This document shows positions 45,522-53,830 of a stretch of DNA of 64,000 nt, one piece after another (the first letter of the stretch is position 1; every line of letters starts with the position of its first letter). The DNA lies in assembly GCA_019695115.1 (NCBI GenBank), contig JAIBAP010000032.1, forward strand, positions 1 through 64,000, in the 5' to 3' direction. A program made the translations under genes and the position numbers. Origin of the DNA: Caldilineales bacterium (GTDB lineage: Bacteria > Chloroflexota > Anaerolineae > J102). The notes below the pieces were generated by a model that saw only the letters and a list, made by a program, of their open reading frames with translations, had not been told where the DNA came from and did no database searches.

Positions 45522-46382
45522 TCAACCATTGCGGTGCAGCTTGCCGGTGCGCTTGGCGTATCGTTCGGCCAGGCCGAAGACTTTCAAGCCGACCGGGATG
45601 GCGATGAAGCCCATCAGCAGCACGGGCCAGATCTGCGGCCAGAGTGCGGCCGGGCCGGCGCCTTGCAGCAGGGCGGCGCGGACGCCGACGAGCACGTAGG
45701 TGGCCGGGCTGAGCACCGACAGCTTCTGCAGCGCCTCGGGCAGCACCTCGATGGGGTAGTAGACGCCGGAGATGAGCAGCATCAGGGCGACGATGACATG
45801 GGTCATCTGCGAGCCGCGCTCGGGGAAGAGCAGCGGCAGCACTGAGCCCATGATGCCGACGCCGATGAAGCTGAGGCTGCCGGCCAGTAGCATGATGGCG
45901 CCTGCGGCCAGGTTGGCGTTGCTGAGGTCGATGTCGAACAGCAGCACGGCGACGACCAGGATGGCCATGTTGAAGACCATGCTGTAGAGTACGGCGAAAA
46001 ACGTCTGGCCAGCCATGTGGGTGATGCGGTGGATCGGCGCCATCAGGGTGTATTCGATCGTCCCTTCCCAGCGTTCGATGCTGATCACATCGGTGATCCA
46101 GTAGAAGATGACCGAGAGGAAGTGCCAGACCAGGGTGCCGACGATCAGGTAGAGGGCCAGGTAGCGGCCGTCGACGGTGGCGTTGCCGCCGCCGAGCTGC
46201 TCCATGCCCAGCCCGATGTAGGCGACCGAGAGGGCGTTGGCGATGGAGTAGCACAGCCAGACGATCTCCCACGACCAGTAGCGGCGCACCAGGTTGGCGT
46301 TGCGCTCCATGAAGGCATAGGTGGCGCGCAGTTGTTGCCTGGCGAAGGTGGGTTGTGATGAGGTGATGGGTGTGGCGGACAT
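45522..46382 (-). CDS. ABC-2 type exporter permease
   Basis: A 286-residue membrane protein with about six hydrophobic helices and an ABC2_membrane layout. The loop WEGTIEYTLMAPIHRITHMAGQ is the conserved motif before the third helix, and SGVYYPIEVLPEALQKLSVLSPATYVLVGVRA is the typical ABC-2 signature near the end. It partners the ATPase gene 106 bases upstream on the same strand. Substrate is unknown; this class exports drugs, lipids or polysaccharides. Confidence 0.9.
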   Translation of the reverse strand: MSATPITSSQPTFARQQLRATYAFMERNANLVRRYWSWEIVWLCYSIANALSVAYIGLGMEQLGGGNATVDGRYLALYLIVGTLVWHFLSVIFYWITDVISIERWEGTIEYTLMAPIHRITHMAGQTFFAVLYSMVFNMAILVVAVLLFDIDLSNANLAAGAIMLLAGSLSFIGVGIMGSVLPLLFPERGSQMTHVIVALMLLISGVYYPIEVLPEALQKLSVLSPATYVLVGVRAALLQGAGPAALWPQIWPVLLMGFIAIPVGLKVFGLAERYAKRTGKLHRNG

Positions 46383-46487
46383 GGGAGTAACCTTGAGAGG
46401 ATGCAGGGAAGAGAGGTGAAAACAGTCAACAATCAGCAGTCAACAATCAACAGTCAACGGTTGACGCTTCACTTGCGACTTGCGACC

Positions 46488-47405
<918 letters not shown>

Positions 47406-47537
47406 GGGAACCTCTGGGGGTGGGTCGTGGATGGTGATGGGCCAGGAAAGAAGGGATGAAAGGGCGTCAGGATTTGGGCTGATGGGGATGGTGGTATTCA
47501 TGGCAAGGTGTGTGGGGTGAGGGGGCGGAACAAACAA

Positions 47538-47569
47538 AAACGGCCACGGGGGTTGCCCGGTGGCCGTTT
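47538..47569 (-). terminator. Leader terminator 2 upstream of the ABC exporter
   Basis: A perfect ten-base stem (aaacggccac / gtggccgttt) with a 12-base loop. On the minus-strand RNA it is followed by TTTTTGTTTGTT. It lies 133 bases before the ABC ATPase start and after leader terminator 1, with which it shares the GGCCAC core. Confidence 0.75.
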
Positions 47570-47607
47570 CTTGCTGACAGGCGCCGAAAAAGGCGCGAGA
47601 AACAAAA

Positions 47608-47639
47608 AGGCCACGGGGCTGGAAGTGCGCCCGTGGCCT
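47608..47639 (-). terminator. Leader terminator 1 upstream of the ABC exporter
   Basis: A perfect ten-base stem (aggccacggg / cccgtggcct) with a 12-base loop, followed on the minus strand by TTTTTGTTTC. It begins 29 bases after the leader-peptide stop codon. Confidence 0.8.
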
Positions 47640-47667
47640 GTGTCGTCGAATTGACTTTACATAACCC

Positions 47668-47760
47668 CTAGGTGGTGGACGCACTCCGAGAACGCGCAAC
47701 GAAATCGCCAGCGGCAAGACGGCGAATTCGCAGATAGGTGTGGGCAAAGGTGATTTGCAT
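47668..47760 (-). CDS. Candidate 30-residue leader peptide of the ABC exporter operon
   Basis: Complement reading from 47760 gives a 30-codon open frame MQITFAHTYLRIRRLAAGDF-VARSRSASTT ending in TAG. GGAGG is nine bases before the ATG and a promoter lies further upstream, so it should be translated first in the transcript. It contains R11-I12-R13, a (+)x(+) motif like the one at which macrolide-bound ribosomes stall in known resistance leaders. Two terminator hairpins follow before the ABC genes. This layout fits attenuation control, but the inducer is a guess. Confidence 0.6.
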   Translation of the reverse strand: MQITFAHTYLRIRRLAAGDFVARSRSASTT

Positions 47761-47835: not shown

Positions 47836-48675
47836 TCAGGCTTTGTTGATTTTGCCCAGAATCTGGGCGAGTACAGCCTGCTCTTCCTCATCCAGGTAGC
47901 CGGCTTGCAGGCCGGCTTGCAGATGGTTGCCTCCCAGCAGCGCCTGGCCCAAGCGGCTGGCAGCCAGCGTGCGCAGGTCTTCCTCGTAAGGGTCGCTGAG
48001 TAAATGGTCATCGACAATGCGACCATCGCGCATTCGCAGAATCCGCCGCGTCGACTGGGCCACGCGGCGGTCATGGGTGACGACGACGATCGTGACCCCC
48101 TGAGCGCGGTTGAGTTCGTCGAGCAGGGCCAGGATCTCCTCGCCACTCTGGCTGTCCAGGCTGCCGGTGGGTTCGTCGGCCAGGAGGATGGCGGGGGAGT
48201 TGGCCAGGGCGCGGGCCACAGCCACACGCTGGCGTTGTCCGCCCGACAATTGGCTGGGGGTCGCCTGCAGCCGCTCACCCAACCCCACCAAATCCAGGAG
48301 ATGGGCGGCCCGCTCTCTGCGCTTGCGGCCATCGTCCCCCTGTCCCACCATCGGCGTTTCCACGTTTTCGATGGCGGTGAGGGTGGGGATGAGGTTGTGC
48401 AGTTGGAAGACGAAGCCGACGGTGCGCGCCCGGAAACGATCGACGTCCTTCAGCCGGGCCAGGTTCTCGCCCGCGACCCGCACTTCACCCGAAGTGGGCA
48501 GGTCGAGCGCCCCCAGCAGGTTGAGGAGCGTGCTCTTGCCGCAGCCGCTCGGCCCCATGATGGCCACGAATTCGCCCGTCCGGGCCGAAACGGTCACATC
48601 GTCCAGCGCCCGCACGGCCGTCTCGCCGCTGCCGTAGATTTTGGTCAGATGAGTGGTTTCAATCAATGCTTCCAT
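47836..48675 (-). CDS. MacB/LolD-type ABC ATP-binding protein
   Basis: A 279-residue ATPase. Walker A is GPSGCGKSTLL, signature LSGGQRQRVAVARAL, Walker B ILLADEPTGSLDS, with the switch histidine in VVTHD. A C-terminal extension of about 50 residues (DPYEEDLRTLAASRLGQALLGG ... LAQILGKINKA) is not typical. MEALIETTHL at 48675 is taken as the start since it aligns with the family. It is the third gene of a MacAB-like set with the adaptor and permease on the same strand. Exported substrate unknown. Confidence 0.9.
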   Translation of the reverse strand: MEALIETTHLTKIYGSGETAVRALDDVTVSARTGEFVAIMGPSGCGKSTLLNLLGALDLPTSGEVRVAGENLARLKDVDRFRARTVGFVFQLHNLIPTLTAIENVETPMVGQGDDGRKRRERAAHLLDLVGLGERLQATPSQLSGGQRQRVAVARALANSPAILLADEPTGSLDSQSGEEILALLDELNRAQGVTIVVVTHDRRVAQSTRRILRMRDGRIVDDHLLSDPYEEDLRTLAASRLGQALLGGNHLQAGLQAGYLDEEEQAVLAQILGKINKA

Positions 48676-48708
48676 GCAACTTCTCGCCACCTTCGCGCCC
48701 TGCGCGGA

Positions 48709-50028
48709 TCACCTCTCCGGCTCGATATTGACGAGAGCCGTCATCCCCCAGCGCAGGGCCGGGTCGAGGTCGGTGACGGCGACGGTGAGGGTGAAATCGG
48801 TGCTGCCCTTTTCGGTGGTGCTGATGGGCGCAATGCGGAGGATCGTCCCCTCGAAGGTGCGGCCTGGCAGAGCGTCGAAGCTCACCTCCACCCGCATCCC
48901 CTCCTGCACATGGGCGACATCCGTCTCGCGCAGGTCGGTGGTCTCCACCTGCATCTGGCTGGTGTCGCCCAGCAGGATCAGAGGCGACCCCGGAACAGCC
49001 ATCTCGCCCGGCCTGGCCATCACACTGCCCACCTGTCCGGCGAACGGGGCCACGATCTGCATCTGCTGCAACTGGGCCTGGGCTGCGCCGAGGGCGGCTT
49101 GCGCCTGCCGCACGCGTGCATTGGCCATGGCCTTGTCGGCAGCCGTGGCGCCATCTTGCCGCGCCTTCAGCCCGGCCTGGGCGCGGGCCAGCTGGGCTTG
49201 GGCGCTGCTCACGCCTGCCTGAGCCTCTGGCAGACGTGCTTGCGCCATGGCCACCTGGTGTTGGGCAGCGGCGATCTGGGCGCGAGCGACGGCCCTCTGC
49301 TGGGGAGTTGCGCCCTGGAGGATGGCTTCGCTGGCGGCTTTGGCGGCCTCAAAAGCGATGGTGGCCTGCTGCAAGGCCGCTGCCTGCGGCATGGCCCCGG
49401 CGTGGGGGTCGCCGCGGATGGCGTCATAGGCGCTTTGGGCCTGCTGGAGGGTCGCAGCCGCCAGGTCGATCTGCTTCTGCGCTGCGATCCGTTCGGCTGG
49501 CGTGGGATGGCTGGCCAGCTCGTTGTATTGGGCCTGAGCGATGGCAAGTTGGGCCTGCGCCGCTGCCACCGACTCATTGGCCTGCTGGACTCCAGCCTGG
49601 GCCAGCGCCACGCCCGCCTCGGCCGCGGCCACATCGGCCTGGGCCGCCGCTAATTCCGCCTCGGTTGCTCCTTCAAGCAACTTCTCGCGGGCGGCTTCGG
49701 CCTCGGCCAGGGCAGCCTGCGCCGTCTCCACCTGGCTTTGCGCCAACTCGTCCGCCAGTTCGACCAGCAAGGCGCCTTCCTCGACCTGATCGCCCGCCTC
49801 GACCTGCACCCTGGCCACCTTTCCGCCCGCCGCCGGGCTGAGCGAGGCCCAGCGGACAGGGGTCAGCCGGCCGGAGGCCCAGATCACAGTGTCTTCTGCC
49901 GCCGCCTCCGTGTCGAGAGGCGCTTCGGCGGCGGGCGTGGCGGCGGGGGCGGTGAAGCGCTGGTAGGCCAACCATCCCGCCACGACGGCGAGCAAGGCGA
50001 GTACGGCGACAAGGAAGGTTCTTCTCAT
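48709..50028 (-). CDS. HlyD/MacA-type periplasmic adaptor protein
   Basis: A 439-residue membrane-anchored adaptor. An N-terminal helix (about 4-22) precedes a lipoyl-like beta section (PAAGGKVARVQVEAGDQVEEGALLVEL). A very long Ala/Gln-rich coiled coil follows (about 75-280), then the returning lipoyl half (QIVAPFAGQVGSVMARPGEM) and a beta-barrel with FEGTILRIAPI. In Gram-negatives this bridges to an outer-membrane channel; in a monoderm-like Chloroflexota its coiled coil may reach other wall parts. GGAGG lies five bases before the ATG at 50028. Confidence 0.9.
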   Translation of the reverse strand: MRRTFLVAVLALLAVVAGWLAYQRFTAPAATPAAEAPLDTEAAAEDTVIWASGRLTPVRWASLSPAAGGKVARVQVEAGDQVEEGALLVELADELAQSQVETAQAALAEAEAAREKLLEGATEAELAAAQADVAAAEAGVALAQAGVQQANESVAAAQAQLAIAQAQYNELASHPTPAERIAAQKQIDLAAATLQQAQSAYDAIRGDPHAGAMPQAAALQQATIAFEAAKAASEAILQGATPQQRAVARAQIAAAQHQVAMAQARLPEAQAGVSSAQAQLARAQAGLKARQDGATAADKAMANARVRQAQAALGAAQAQLQQMQIVAPFAGQVGSVMARPGEMAVPGSPLILLGDTSQMQVETTDLRETDVAHVQEGMRVEVSFDALPGRTFEGTILRIAPISTTEKGSTDFTLTVAVTDLDPALRWGMTALVNIEPER

Positions 50029-50046
50029 AGTTGCCTCCAACGATTG

Positions 50047-52281
50047 TCATTCATAACGCAGCGCCTCGACCGGCAGCAAACGGCTGGCGCGCCAGGCTGG
50101 ATAGGCGCCGGCGAGCAGACCGACGACCAGCGTCAGGATCACGGCCTGGATGAACGTAGCCGGCTGCCACAAAGGCTGCATGTACGTGCTCAGAATCGGC
50201 GCCTGAGCCAGCGCCTGCATGAAGACGACGCCGATCAACGAGCCGAGTAAAGCCGCCAGCAAACACAGCAGCAGGCTCTCCTCGACGATCTGTCCCAGAA
50301 TGCGGCTGCGACGCCAGCCCATCGCCCGCAGCGCTCCAATCTCGCGCGTGCGCTCGTAGATCGACATCATCATCGTGTTGGCGACGACGATGCCGCCCAC
50401 CAGCAGGGCGAGCAGGCCGATGCCATTCATCATCTCGCTGCCGCGGGCCATGTCGTCTGTGTTCTGCGCAAACTGGCTGCTCAGGCTGGCTTGGGCGTCG
50501 GGGAAGCGGCGCTCGATGGCCTTGACCACCGCTTCGGCCTGCCTGGGGTCGGCGACATCGACGAAGATGAAACTGACATTGCGCGGGCGATTGAACAAAC
50601 GCTCGGCCTCGCGCAAGGCCAGCATCCCGCTGCCATCCTCCCAGGCCACGCCCGTCTCCACCAGCCCGACGATCTGATAGCGATTGTCGTAGAGCGTCAT
50701 CGCCTCGCCCACCTTCAGCTTATAAGTCTTGGCGGCCAGTGTCCCCAAAAGGATTTCGTGCGGACGCCGGATGCTCCGCCCCTCTTTGATCTTGTAGTGC
50801 CGCATGGCGGCGCTGTTCGGGTCGATGCCGCCGACCATGAACAGCGGCAGGTCGGGCGTCATCACGAAGCCCAGCACCATCGGGCTGACCGACCGCACCC
50901 CCGGCATGGCCGCAATCTGCGAGACCATGCGCTCATCGAGGCTGCTGAGGCTGAGGTCGGCCACATCGCGCTGCATGATCGTGATATTGCCGGCGCCGGC
51001 GCTGCCGGCCAGGCTGTTCATCTGCTCGGTCACGCCGTCGATCAGCCCACCCAACATGATCAACGTGGCCACGCCGATGCCGATGCCGGTGGCCGAGATC
51101 AGGGTGCGGTTGCGCCGCCGCCACAGATTGCGAAAACTCTGGCTGCCCACGCCAGCGAGAACGCCCTTCGCCTCGCCGGCGCCGCCGCCTTCGTAGCGCA
51201 GCGCCTCGACTGGCAACAGATTGGCGGCCGTCCAGGCTGGGTACAACCCGCCCAACAACCCCAGGCAAACGGCCGTGACCATGCCCTGGACGAAGATCTT
51301 GGGCGAGTAGCTGCCTTCGAGCATGGCGCCGAAGCCGGGGATGCGGGCGATGGCCTGGCCGAAGAGAACTCCCAGACCCAGGCCGAGCAATCCCCCCAGC
51401 AGGCTAAGCGCCAGCGCCTCGCCCAGGATCAGACCCACCACGCGACCCCGCCGCCAACCCAATGCCCGCAGCACACCGATCTCGCGCGTTCTCTCCAACA
51501 CCGTCATCACCATCGCGTTCATCATACCCAGACCGCCGATGAGGATGGCAATGGCCGAGAGACCCCAGGCAAAGCCCCCCATCATCCCGCTCCACTGGGC
51601 GTTGGCTTCGCGGTCGCTGGCTGTGGCCACACTCAGATCTTTGTCGAGGGCGGCGATACGGCTTTTCACCGTCTCCAGATCGACGCCGCGGCTCACGCCC
51701 ACCTGAAACAAACTGACGTTTCGCTCTTTCTGGGTGATGTCCTGGGCTTCGACCAGCGATACCACCCCACCCGATTCCTCCATCCCCTGGCCGGTCTCGT
51801 AAACCCCTACCACCTGATACGGGATGGCGTTGAGCCGGACCGTCTCGCCGGCTTTCTTGTCCAGGCTTTCCGCTGCCCGCCGCCCCAGCAGGATTTGCCT
51901 GGCCCCTGCCAGCGGTTTGCCTTCCACCAGCCGATAGTGGTTCAGCGCCGACGCGCCCGGTTCATAGCCAAAAATGAGCAGGAACGGCAATTCAGGCGTG
52001 CTGATCCATCCGTAGACGCCCGGCTCGACCGCGGTCACGCCAGGCACGGCGGCGATGCGTTGGCCCAACTGCTCATCCAGACTGCTGTAGGCGACATCGA
52101 TGGCATTGGCCTGCGAGACCAACAGATCATCACTCATGCCGACGGCGGTGGTGTAGTTCTGGCTGAGGCCGGCAGCCATCGCATTCAGCCCGACCACGGC
52201 TGCCACACCAGCGGCAATGCCCAACATCGTCAGCAGGCTGCGCAGCCGTCGCCGCCAGAGATTCTTGATGATCATCGACAT
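50047..52281 (-). CDS. FtsX/MacB-type ABC permease, two-unit fusion
   Basis: A 744-residue permease made of two tandem FtsX-like units, each with an N-terminal helix, a large extracytoplasmic MacB core and three further helices. Each unit repeats the pattern RTREIGVLRALGWRRGRV and ends PAWTAANLLPVEALRYEG or PAWRASRLLPVEALRYE. Usual MacB permeases have one such unit, so this is an internal duplication and could act as a monomeric pair. Start at 52281 is supported by GGAGG six bases upstream. A consensus promoter precedes it and it is the first gene of the MacAB-like operon. Confidence 0.92.
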   Translation of the reverse strand: MSMIIKNLWRRRLRSLLTMLGIAAGVAAVVGLNAMAAGLSQNYTTAVGMSDDLLVSQANAIDVAYSSLDEQLGQRIAAVPGVTAVEPGVYGWISTPELPFLLIFGYEPGASALNHYRLVEGKPLAGARQILLGRRAAESLDKKAGETVRLNAIPYQVVGVYETGQGMEESGGVVSLVEAQDITQKERNVSLFQVGVSRGVDLETVKSRIAALDKDLSVATASDREANAQWSGMMGGFAWGLSAIAILIGGLGMMNAMVMTVLERTREIGVLRALGWRRGRVVGLILGEALALSLLGGLLGLGLGVLFGQAIARIPGFGAMLEGSYSPKIFVQGMVTAVCLGLLGGLYPAWTAANLLPVEALRYEGGGAGEAKGVLAGVGSQSFRNLWRRRNRTLISATGIGIGVATLIMLGGLIDGVTEQMNSLAGSAGAGNITIMQRDVADLSLSSLDERMVSQIAAMPGVRSVSPMVLGFVMTPDLPLFMVGGIDPNSAAMRHYKIKEGRSIRRPHEILLGTLAAKTYKLKVGEAMTLYDNRYQIVGLVETGVAWEDGSGMLALREAERLFNRPRNVSFIFVDVADPRQAEAVVKAIERRFPDAQASLSSQFAQNTDDMARGSEMMNGIGLLALLVGGIVVANTMMMSIYERTREIGALRAMGWRRSRILGQIVEESLLLCLLAALLGSLIGVVFMQALAQAPILSTYMQPLWQPATFIQAVILTLVVGLLAGAYPAWRASRLLPVEALRYE

Positions 52282-52296
52282 TGCATGCCTCCAAAA

Positions 52297-52316
52297 AATT
52301 TAGGCTCGACTAAATT
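52297..52316. promoter_or_regulatory. Palindromic operator overlapping the MacAB promoter -10
   Basis: AATTTAG and CTAAATT, perfect seven-base arms separated by six bases. It overlaps the -10 box and the expected transcription start, so a bound repressor would block initiation. The arms recall DtxR/MntR-type sites, which is only a resemblance. Confidence 0.55.
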
Positions 52317-52342
52317 ATAGCCAGGACGGGCGCCTTTGTCAA
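52314..52342 (-). promoter_or_regulatory. Consensus sigma-70-type promoter of the MacAB-like operon
   Basis: Minus strand TTGACA (52342-52337), 17-base spacer, TATAAT (52319-52314): both boxes and spacing are perfect consensus. It is the best promoter in the window. Confidence 0.85.
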
Positions 52343-52642
52343 GCTGCAAAGGGCATAGTCTGACATTTTACTGTGATCCAATTTACAAGTCTCTGCGGAA
52401 GGCCATTGACTTTCGCCGCAGTTGCGCCTATAATGGTAGCAATCCTACAAGCTGAGGCCCAGCCGCTGTCATGGCTCCTCAGCGACGCTGACATCGAAGT
52501 TTCATCGCACAAATGATACCTGCCGCGGGCGTGCGAGCGGCGGACGGCCACAGCGCCACTGTTGAACGAGCATACGGCGGGGACGGTAGCCTCGGCGGGT
52601 TTTGGTGATCCTTGTGTACACAAACAGAGAGGAAGGCATCCC

Positions 52643-53830
52643 ATGAAAGCGATCTTCGTTGCCGCCTGCCTGAGCCTGGCGGTGCTGGCGATGACGGCCT
52701 GCGCCCGCGCGGCCACCCCACCGCCGCCCACGGCCACGCCGTCGCCGCCCACCGCCACCCGCATCCCTCGCACCCCCACCCCGCGCCTGCCCACCCCCAC
52801 CCCCATCCCACCCACCATCACCCCCATCCCCTACCTGCCCCCGCCCTCCGAGACGCCGCCCCCGATTTCGCCCAAGTATAGACTCAGCCAGGTCTACGAA
52901 AGCTTCCGTAGTCCCTCGTTGGCCGGCAACATGCTGGAAATTGCTACCACGCGCACGTTCATGGTGCATCTGCCTGCCAGCTACGATAGCGGTGACAAAC
53001 GCTATCCGGTCCTCTATGCGCTGCCGTTGTGGACGACCGGAAATGCCAGGGATTTCGGCCTCCCCGAGGCGCTGGGCCGGTGGGTGGAGGCGGGGAAGAT
53101 GCCGGAGGCGATCATCGTCGAGGTCGATTCGCACAGCACCCACTATGTCGGTGACTTCTACCAGAGCAACCCGGTGATCGGGGATTGGGAGGGCTACGTC
53201 GCCAAGGATCTGGTCGGCTATATCGATGGCAAGTACCGCACGCTGCCCGACCCGGCCAGTCGGGCCATCCTCGGTCTCGAGGACGCGGGCGGCGGCGGCG
53301 CCATCCACATGGGCCTGAAGCGGCCGGATGTGTTCGGCATTGTGGCCACTATGGCTCCTGGTCTCGGCTCTGAGGTCTTCCTCAAGGATTGCGCCATCAA
53401 GTCCTACTTCACCGGGAGCGGGCACATGTGGGCGCCGGCCTGGGCCTGCAAGGAATTGGCCCAGGCCCTGAGCCTGAGCTTCGCTGCCGACCCGAACAAC
53501 AAGCCTGTTGCCCCTGAGCCGGCCGTCAAAGTGAATGGCAAGTGGCAGTTGACGCCTGAAGTGTGGGAAAAGGGCAAGCGGGTTCATCCTTCCTATGACC
53601 TCGAGGGCTACAGCCAACAAAGCGCCAGGCTGAAGGCCATGCTGCTGGTGCAAAGCGCCACCGATCAGGCTACCAATATCAGCAATGTGCGCAATTTCGT
53701 AGAAGCGATGGAAGAGATCGGGATTCCGGTCGATTACCGCGAGGTGATCACGCCCGACGAGTGGGGGCATCATTTCTGGGATAACGAAATGCTGTTCGAG
53801 TTTCTGAGCAAGCAGTTGGTGGCCGAGTAG
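52643..53830 (+). CDS. Esterase-fold (EstD-like) lipoprotein lacking the catalytic serine
   Basis: A 395-residue exported lipoprotein. The signal ends in AMTAC (cysteine about 16), followed by a Pro/Thr-rich linker and an alpha/beta-hydrolase of the PF00756 type (FMVHLPASYDSGDKRYPVLYALP, EAIIVEVDS, VFGIVATMAPGLGSEVF). The nucleophile elbow, normally GxSxGG, reads GLEDAGGGG: no serine is present. The late histidine in ITPDEWGHHFW is kept. It is probably a non-catalytic binding protein. AGAGGAAGG precedes the ATG at 52643. A strong palindromic hairpin follows the stop. Confidence 0.8.
   Translation: MKAIFVAACLSLAVLAMTACARAATPPPPTATPSPPTATRIPRTPTPRLPTPTPIPPTITPIPYLPPPSETPPPISPKYRLSQVYESFRSPSLAGNMLEIATTRTFMVHLPASYDSGDKRYPVLYALPLWTTGNARDFGLPEALGRWVEAGKMPEAIIVEVDSHSTHYVGDFYQSNPVIGDWEGYVAKDLVGYIDGKYRTLPDPASRAILGLEDAGGGGAIHMGLKRPDVFGIVATMAPGLGSEVFLKDCAIKSYFTGSGHMWAPAWACKELAQALSLSFAADPNNKPVAPEPAVKVNGKWQLTPEVWEKGKRVHPSYDLEGYSQQSARLKAMLLVQSATDQATNISNVRNFVEAMEEIGIPVDYREVITPDEWGHHFWDNEMLFEFLSKQLVAE

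Follow-up and report, generated by a model that had tools for sequence, protein, structure and literature searches.

The promoter of a MacB-type exporter operon in a Caldilineales genome carries on its -10 box a palindrome, AATTTAG-N6-CTAAATT, that very probably serves as operator for a metal-dependent DtxR/MntR-family repressor. The operon lies in the 64,000-nucleotide stretch of contig JAIBAP010000032.1 that was analysed here (the window), and sequence patterns point to the MntR-type protein encoded on contig C41 as the most likely repressor, which would place the exporter in a metal-starvation regulon. In the proposed mechanism, MntR loaded with Mn(II) or Fe(II) would occupy the -10 box together with the start point, keeping RNA polymerase out; when metal is scarce, MntR would release the DNA and the perfect sigma-70 promoter would drive the genes for the permease, membrane fusion protein, and ATPase. 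The exporter would thereby share one metal-starvation regulon with FeoB, a multicopper oxidase/ZIP pair, and a P-type ATPase. MntR binding, repression by that binding, the acting metal, and a need for the exporter in metal shortage are what we infer from the comparisons below. A DtxR/MntR-family operator on the -10 box is a known type of switch; a MacB-type pump under such a switch is unusual.

Promoter, palindrome, and further copies in the genome

The features of the operon and its promoter are collected in Table 1. The original prediction of a perfect TTGACA-17-TATAAT promoter with a palindrome over its -10 box and start point was borne out, as the promoter matched the consensus at 12/12 positions on the minus strand and the palindrome (AATTTAG-TCGAGC-CTAAATT on that strand, 52316-52297) has the letters AAT (52316-52314) in common with the -10 box, the end of one being the beginning of the other. 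The start point, at about 52307, should fall inside the palindrome. The GGAGG motif and the permease ATG at 52281 follow within 20 bases downstream. By chance, the exact palindrome is expected about 7e-6 times per 64 kb at 64% GC, and allowing up to three mismatches gave two matches in the 64-kb window against 0.23 expected. A second near-consensus promoter (TTGACT-17-TATAAT, 52406-52434, plus strand) aims at an esterase gene at 52643 and has no box on it.

Table 1. Exporter genes and promoter features in the window
Feature	Position	Strand	Basis or remark
744-aa single-chain duplicated MacB/FtsX-type permease	50047..52281	-	PF12704 and PF02687, two stretches each
443-aa HlyD/MacA-type membrane fusion protein, TTG start as listed	48709..50040	-	HlyD_D23; RND_mfp above cut-off
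284-aa LolD/MacB/YbbA-type ABC ATPase	47836..48690	-	profile matches; 222 bits on YbbA
-35 hexamer TTGACA	52337..52342	-	consensus 6/6
-10 hexamer TATAAT, 17-bp spacer	52314..52319	-	consensus 6/6
Predicted DtxR/MntR-family operator AATTTAG-N6-CTAAATT	52297..52316	.	overlaps -10 by three bases and the expected start point; layout recurs at C10:1969 and C26:29230
Probable ribosome binding site GGAGG	52288..52292	-	sequence

With its A/T flanks the exact palindrome occurred three times in the 5.99-Mb genome and its reversed-pattern control not at all. The search elsewhere in the genome that had been proposed along with the promoter thus returned two exact copies beyond the window, one on C10 preceding a DtxR-FeoA fusion gene, behind which comes a split FeoB, and one on C26 preceding a heavy-metal P-type ATPase, with a methyltransferase-like gene next in line. 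The three unlinked promoters have the same layout, TTGACA-17-(TATAAT/GATAAT/TAAAAT) fused to the box, and a tandem pair of boxes with one mismatch lies upstream of a multicopper oxidase and a ZIP-like gene on C1. Only exact or one-mismatch sites were meaningful, since a two-mismatch search of the genome lost the signal against the reversed control (12 matches versus 17). Neither the MntR gene on C41 nor the single Nramp gene of the genome was found among the genes with a box. The SirR/MntR box of staphylococci and the DtxR/IdeR box have the core TTTAGG-N4-CCTAAA, from which the window copy departs once (TTTAGG-CTCG-ACTAAA), and it holds no second overlapping core; a search for TTTAGGN4CCTAAA in the genome with two mismatches permitted showed no enrichment (32 matches versus 127 in the control).

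The box across the class and before exporter orthologs

Counted from the result rows, the exact site was present in 18/61 genomes (the own genome and 60 relatives) with 26 sites against 8 for the reversed control, and TTGACA followed within 10-26 bases by TTTAG-N6-CTAAA gave 103 matches in 77 of the 298 class genomes against 19 in the control. The gap between TTGACA and the box was 21 or 22 in 55/103 pairs, where an even spread would give 12, a difference whose p-value is overstated and not literal because the class genomes are related. The gene census was confined to the 66 sites with a gap of 20-24, leaving out the 37/103 matches with other gaps, and the first gene at each site was assigned by Pfam on 39 proteins and, at 26 sites, from N-termini and earlier searches. 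Metal-homeostasis genes followed 53 of these promoter-fused boxes, namely short MntR/DtxR, DtxR-FeoA, FeoAB, ZnuA-type binding protein, Nramp, multicopper oxidase, and P-type ATPase. A MacB-like permease followed four, in the window, G005, G004, and, truncated, G052, where the box is succeeded by a permease of 247 aa and then directly by an Nramp gene (L117:624-2739). The other nine were of neither kind or unassignable, comprising contig ends (L279, L281, and L282), sites without an ORF (L275-L277), a reversed GbsR motif (L272), a membrane protein (L245), and a 444-residue protein (L278). The original guess of a DtxR/MntR-type site with metal control was supported in this way, as boxes on the -10 precede metal genes throughout the class, and the pattern offers a testable metal regulon for Chloroflexota (Caldilineales and the class) with one box, one promoter layout, and one candidate regulator. 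The cluster of matches at gap 26 was left out of the metal-box count, being mainly a GbsR/MarR-like motif: in family f27, GTTTAGTAATTACTAAAC lies three bases past the -10 of genes for GbsR/MarR-like proteins of about 176 residues (L142, L144-L148, and L150), probably as autoregulation.

Ahead of orthologous permeases the box was found in the window, G004, G005, and G006, which represent four different f1 genera. The G006 box falls immediately after the -10 (TTGACA-18-TATACT, read by eye), and the permease behind it has no adjoining adaptor or ATPase genes (L113). A second arrangement was present in one genus of family f38, in which a single operon runs from the box through MntR, permease, and membrane fusion protein to the ATPase in 7/10 of the f38 genomes fetched, with permeases 59-62% identical; in OY282381.1 (L172) the box likewise precedes a co-directional MntR gene in the box-MntR-exporter arrangement. 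The exporter would thus be placed in the metal regulon in several genera and in two ways, as box-pump and as box-MntR-pump operon. At L229-L235 in family f38, the box TTTAGCCATGACTAAA contains the MntR start codon (ATG ACT AAA = MTK) about six bases past the -10, which would give a leaderless transcript and make the operator a piece of the coding sequence.

Absence of the palindrome upstream of orthologous operons had been named beforehand as the outcome that would speak against the reading, and here the result was mixed. Nineteen named orthologs reached 57% identity or more and came with upstream sequence (L175, with 5 bases upstream, was dropped). The full box lay directly upstream in three of them (L162, L164, and L184), a weaker one in L174, and one before MntR in L172; the upstream sequence of the remaining 14 held no box. 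L162, L164, and L184 seem identical to the contigs of G005, G006, and G004 and add no further cases. The closest ortholog (71%) has a TetR gene upstream and no box, and LysR genes lie upstream of two others, which suggests that the pump has been placed under different regulators by lineage, the metal regulon among them. More distant permease relatives (below 55% identity) had the box in 0/11 of one set and 0/7 of another and were judged not orthologous in regulation.

Exporter type and possible substrate

The designation of the operon as a MacAB-like exporter held for the permease, which carries the MacB periplasmic core and FtsX permease domains of MacAB-TolC, each twice. The remainder differed: the ATPase is a separate gene where MacAB-TolC has an ATPase-permease fusion, the permease is duplicated with a fold most like YbbP, and no TolC-family protein was found in the genome (0 matches to PF02321, a profile that matched in 7/14 control genomes). 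The structure model of the permease is weak (pLDDT 67.9, pTM 0.43) and was used for the fold class only; it shows, with low confidence, two repeats of one helix, an extracytoplasmic domain, and three helices. Foldseek with this model placed YbbAP (9ge6) at the top, at 16% identity, followed by LolCDE and MacB, and the best solved relatives by sequence were the Streptococcus pneumoniae MacB-like permease 5xu1 and MacB. Escherichia coli YbbAP also has a long chain (799 residues), whereas an adaptor gene is present here in contrast to both YbbAP and LolCDE. The 5xu1 permease forms a separate chain of 419 residues, and the permease here is separate as well. YknXYZ and S. pneumoniae Sp0785-0787 are described as a MacB-type permease with an adaptor that work without an outer membrane (PMC5985334), and the permease here differs from theirs as a single-chain duplication. 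The ABC-2 transporter genes downstream (45522-47747) were not assigned to the exporter operon.

As a working guess, the exporter would collect, at the membrane or on the cell-wall side, a small molecule that is amphiphilic or binds metal. Substrates reported for MacB relatives are antibiotics, a protein toxin, siderophores, and lipoproteins (PMC5985334). Export of a classical self-made siderophore was not supported, because neither NRPS condensation domains nor IucA/IucC were found in the genome. A bolder and rather unlikely possibility is that the YbbAP/MacAB-type exporter and its adaptor form a dedicated Mn/Fe-starvation arm in Caldilineales-like Chloroflexota, which would clear from the envelope some molecule that binds metal, be it a new metallophore, a heme-like compound, or a chelator of foreign origin; metal acquisition in these monoderm bacteria would then include an export step not described so far. 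In the open literature searched, no publication described an MntR or DtxR motif for Chloroflexi/Chloroflexota, and among the matches listed there was no evident one for MntR or DtxR combined with MacB; RegPrecise may have entries of this kind. Membership in the regulon would supply a condition in which the pump can be studied.

Candidate repressor and alternative readings

The MntR-type protein on C41 (G000:C41:8276-8920) is the only soluble one in the genome, is unlinked to the exporter, and combines PF01325 and PF02742 above cut-off with an FeoA/SH3-type domain; two further PF01325 matches in the genome read as MarR- and DeoR-like and were set aside as regulators. In the MntR type, DtxR Met10 and Cys102 are replaced by Asp and Glu, and alignment to IdeR (1fx7) put D8 and E100 of the C41 protein at the places of IdeR M10 and C102. 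Among solved structures it aligned best with 8pvt, which we take to be DR2539. Glu11 of the regular MntR binuclear site is replaced by K11, and H96 stands at the place matching His98 of DR2539. The lysine at position 11 makes the protein DR2539-like rather than Bacillus subtilis MntR-like. DR2539, a DtxR-family protein that depends on Mn(II)/Fe(II), represses mntH in Deinococcus radiodurans, binds with Mn or Fe to an inverted repeat within the promoter of a metal transporter, and has Lys in place of MntR Glu11 while keeping His98 and the SH3-like domain (PMC3327659), so the C41 protein resembles it in K11, H96, and the FeoA/SH3-type domain. By analogy, Mn(II), Fe(II), or both would be the likely signal. 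Unlike the box under the exporter here, the targets of DR2539 in the passages covered do not include a MacB-type exporter (PMC3327659). TroR of Treponema pallidum provides a further DtxR-family operator lying over a promoter like the window site (PMC2628430), whereas the arms of Treponema operators differ from the window box and promoter and operator are 10 bp apart in T. denticola (PMC2628430); on account of the arms, the TroR operator was rejected as a match.

Co-occurrence in family f1 also points to the soluble MntR. A strong ortholog (E < 1e-80) was present in 9/10 genomes with a box and 0/10 without, the box being called in 10/20 genomes from the union of three box searches and the flank-less matches in G007 and G010 counted as without; with these two counted as box-positive, the figures became 9/12 versus 0/8 (p 0.001). 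G008 has the box and an MntR relative of only 36%. It is improbable that the possibly membrane-anchored DtxR-FeoA fusion beside FeoB on C10 binds the box in place of the soluble MntR, in which case repression would still be metal-dependent. The fusion does have an exact box before its own operon, and its orthologs have one in six more genomes of the family (L283-L288) and in G005 (L128). Its occurrence in f1 showed no link to the box (8/10 genomes with, 8/10 without), however: it is kept without a box in eight family genomes of genus g6 and absent from G004 and G012, which have the box. Its helix-turn-helix also falls below the Pfam DtxR DNA-binding model, which 28/30 of the DtxR proteins under boxes reach. 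An unrelated repressor with similar arms (MarR/GbsR or TetR) is a much fainter prospect, brought up by the look-alike GTTTAGTAATTACTAAAC before the f27 genes; that motif has TA..TA inside and lies three bases beyond the -10, whereas the window site fits the metal-gene class in both spacing and letters. Coincidence, for which the only point is the single exact copy in the window, can practically be dismissed given the chance expectation above and the conservation of the palindrome before the orthologs in G004, G005, and G006.

The metal operator being granted, there is an appreciable though minor chance that the exporter came under it when promoters were shuffled at random, its role being the general efflux of drugs or peptides. 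The TetR or LysR genes upstream of orthologs in other lineages, as often seen with drug pumps, fit this explanation, as does the restriction of the box to a minority of exporter orthologs. Against it, the linkage of box and exporter recurs, in the four f1 genera, in the MntR operon of the f38 genus, and in the series of box, truncated permease, and Nramp in G052.

Two of the other gene sets have features of their own. The heavy-metal P-type ATPase (L013:6648-9715) is followed by a PEMT/ICMT-type methyltransferase gene and lies under a box in G001 as well (L258); a P-type ATPase exporter is unexpected under a switch of the starvation type, unless its task is to expel metal that was imported in error. 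At L014:2018-5516, a DtxR-type repressor with an N-terminal hydrophobic helix and an FeoA domain stands beside an FeoB split in two genes; this fusion is possibly a membrane-anchored metal regulator and is full-length in about 20/61 genomes.
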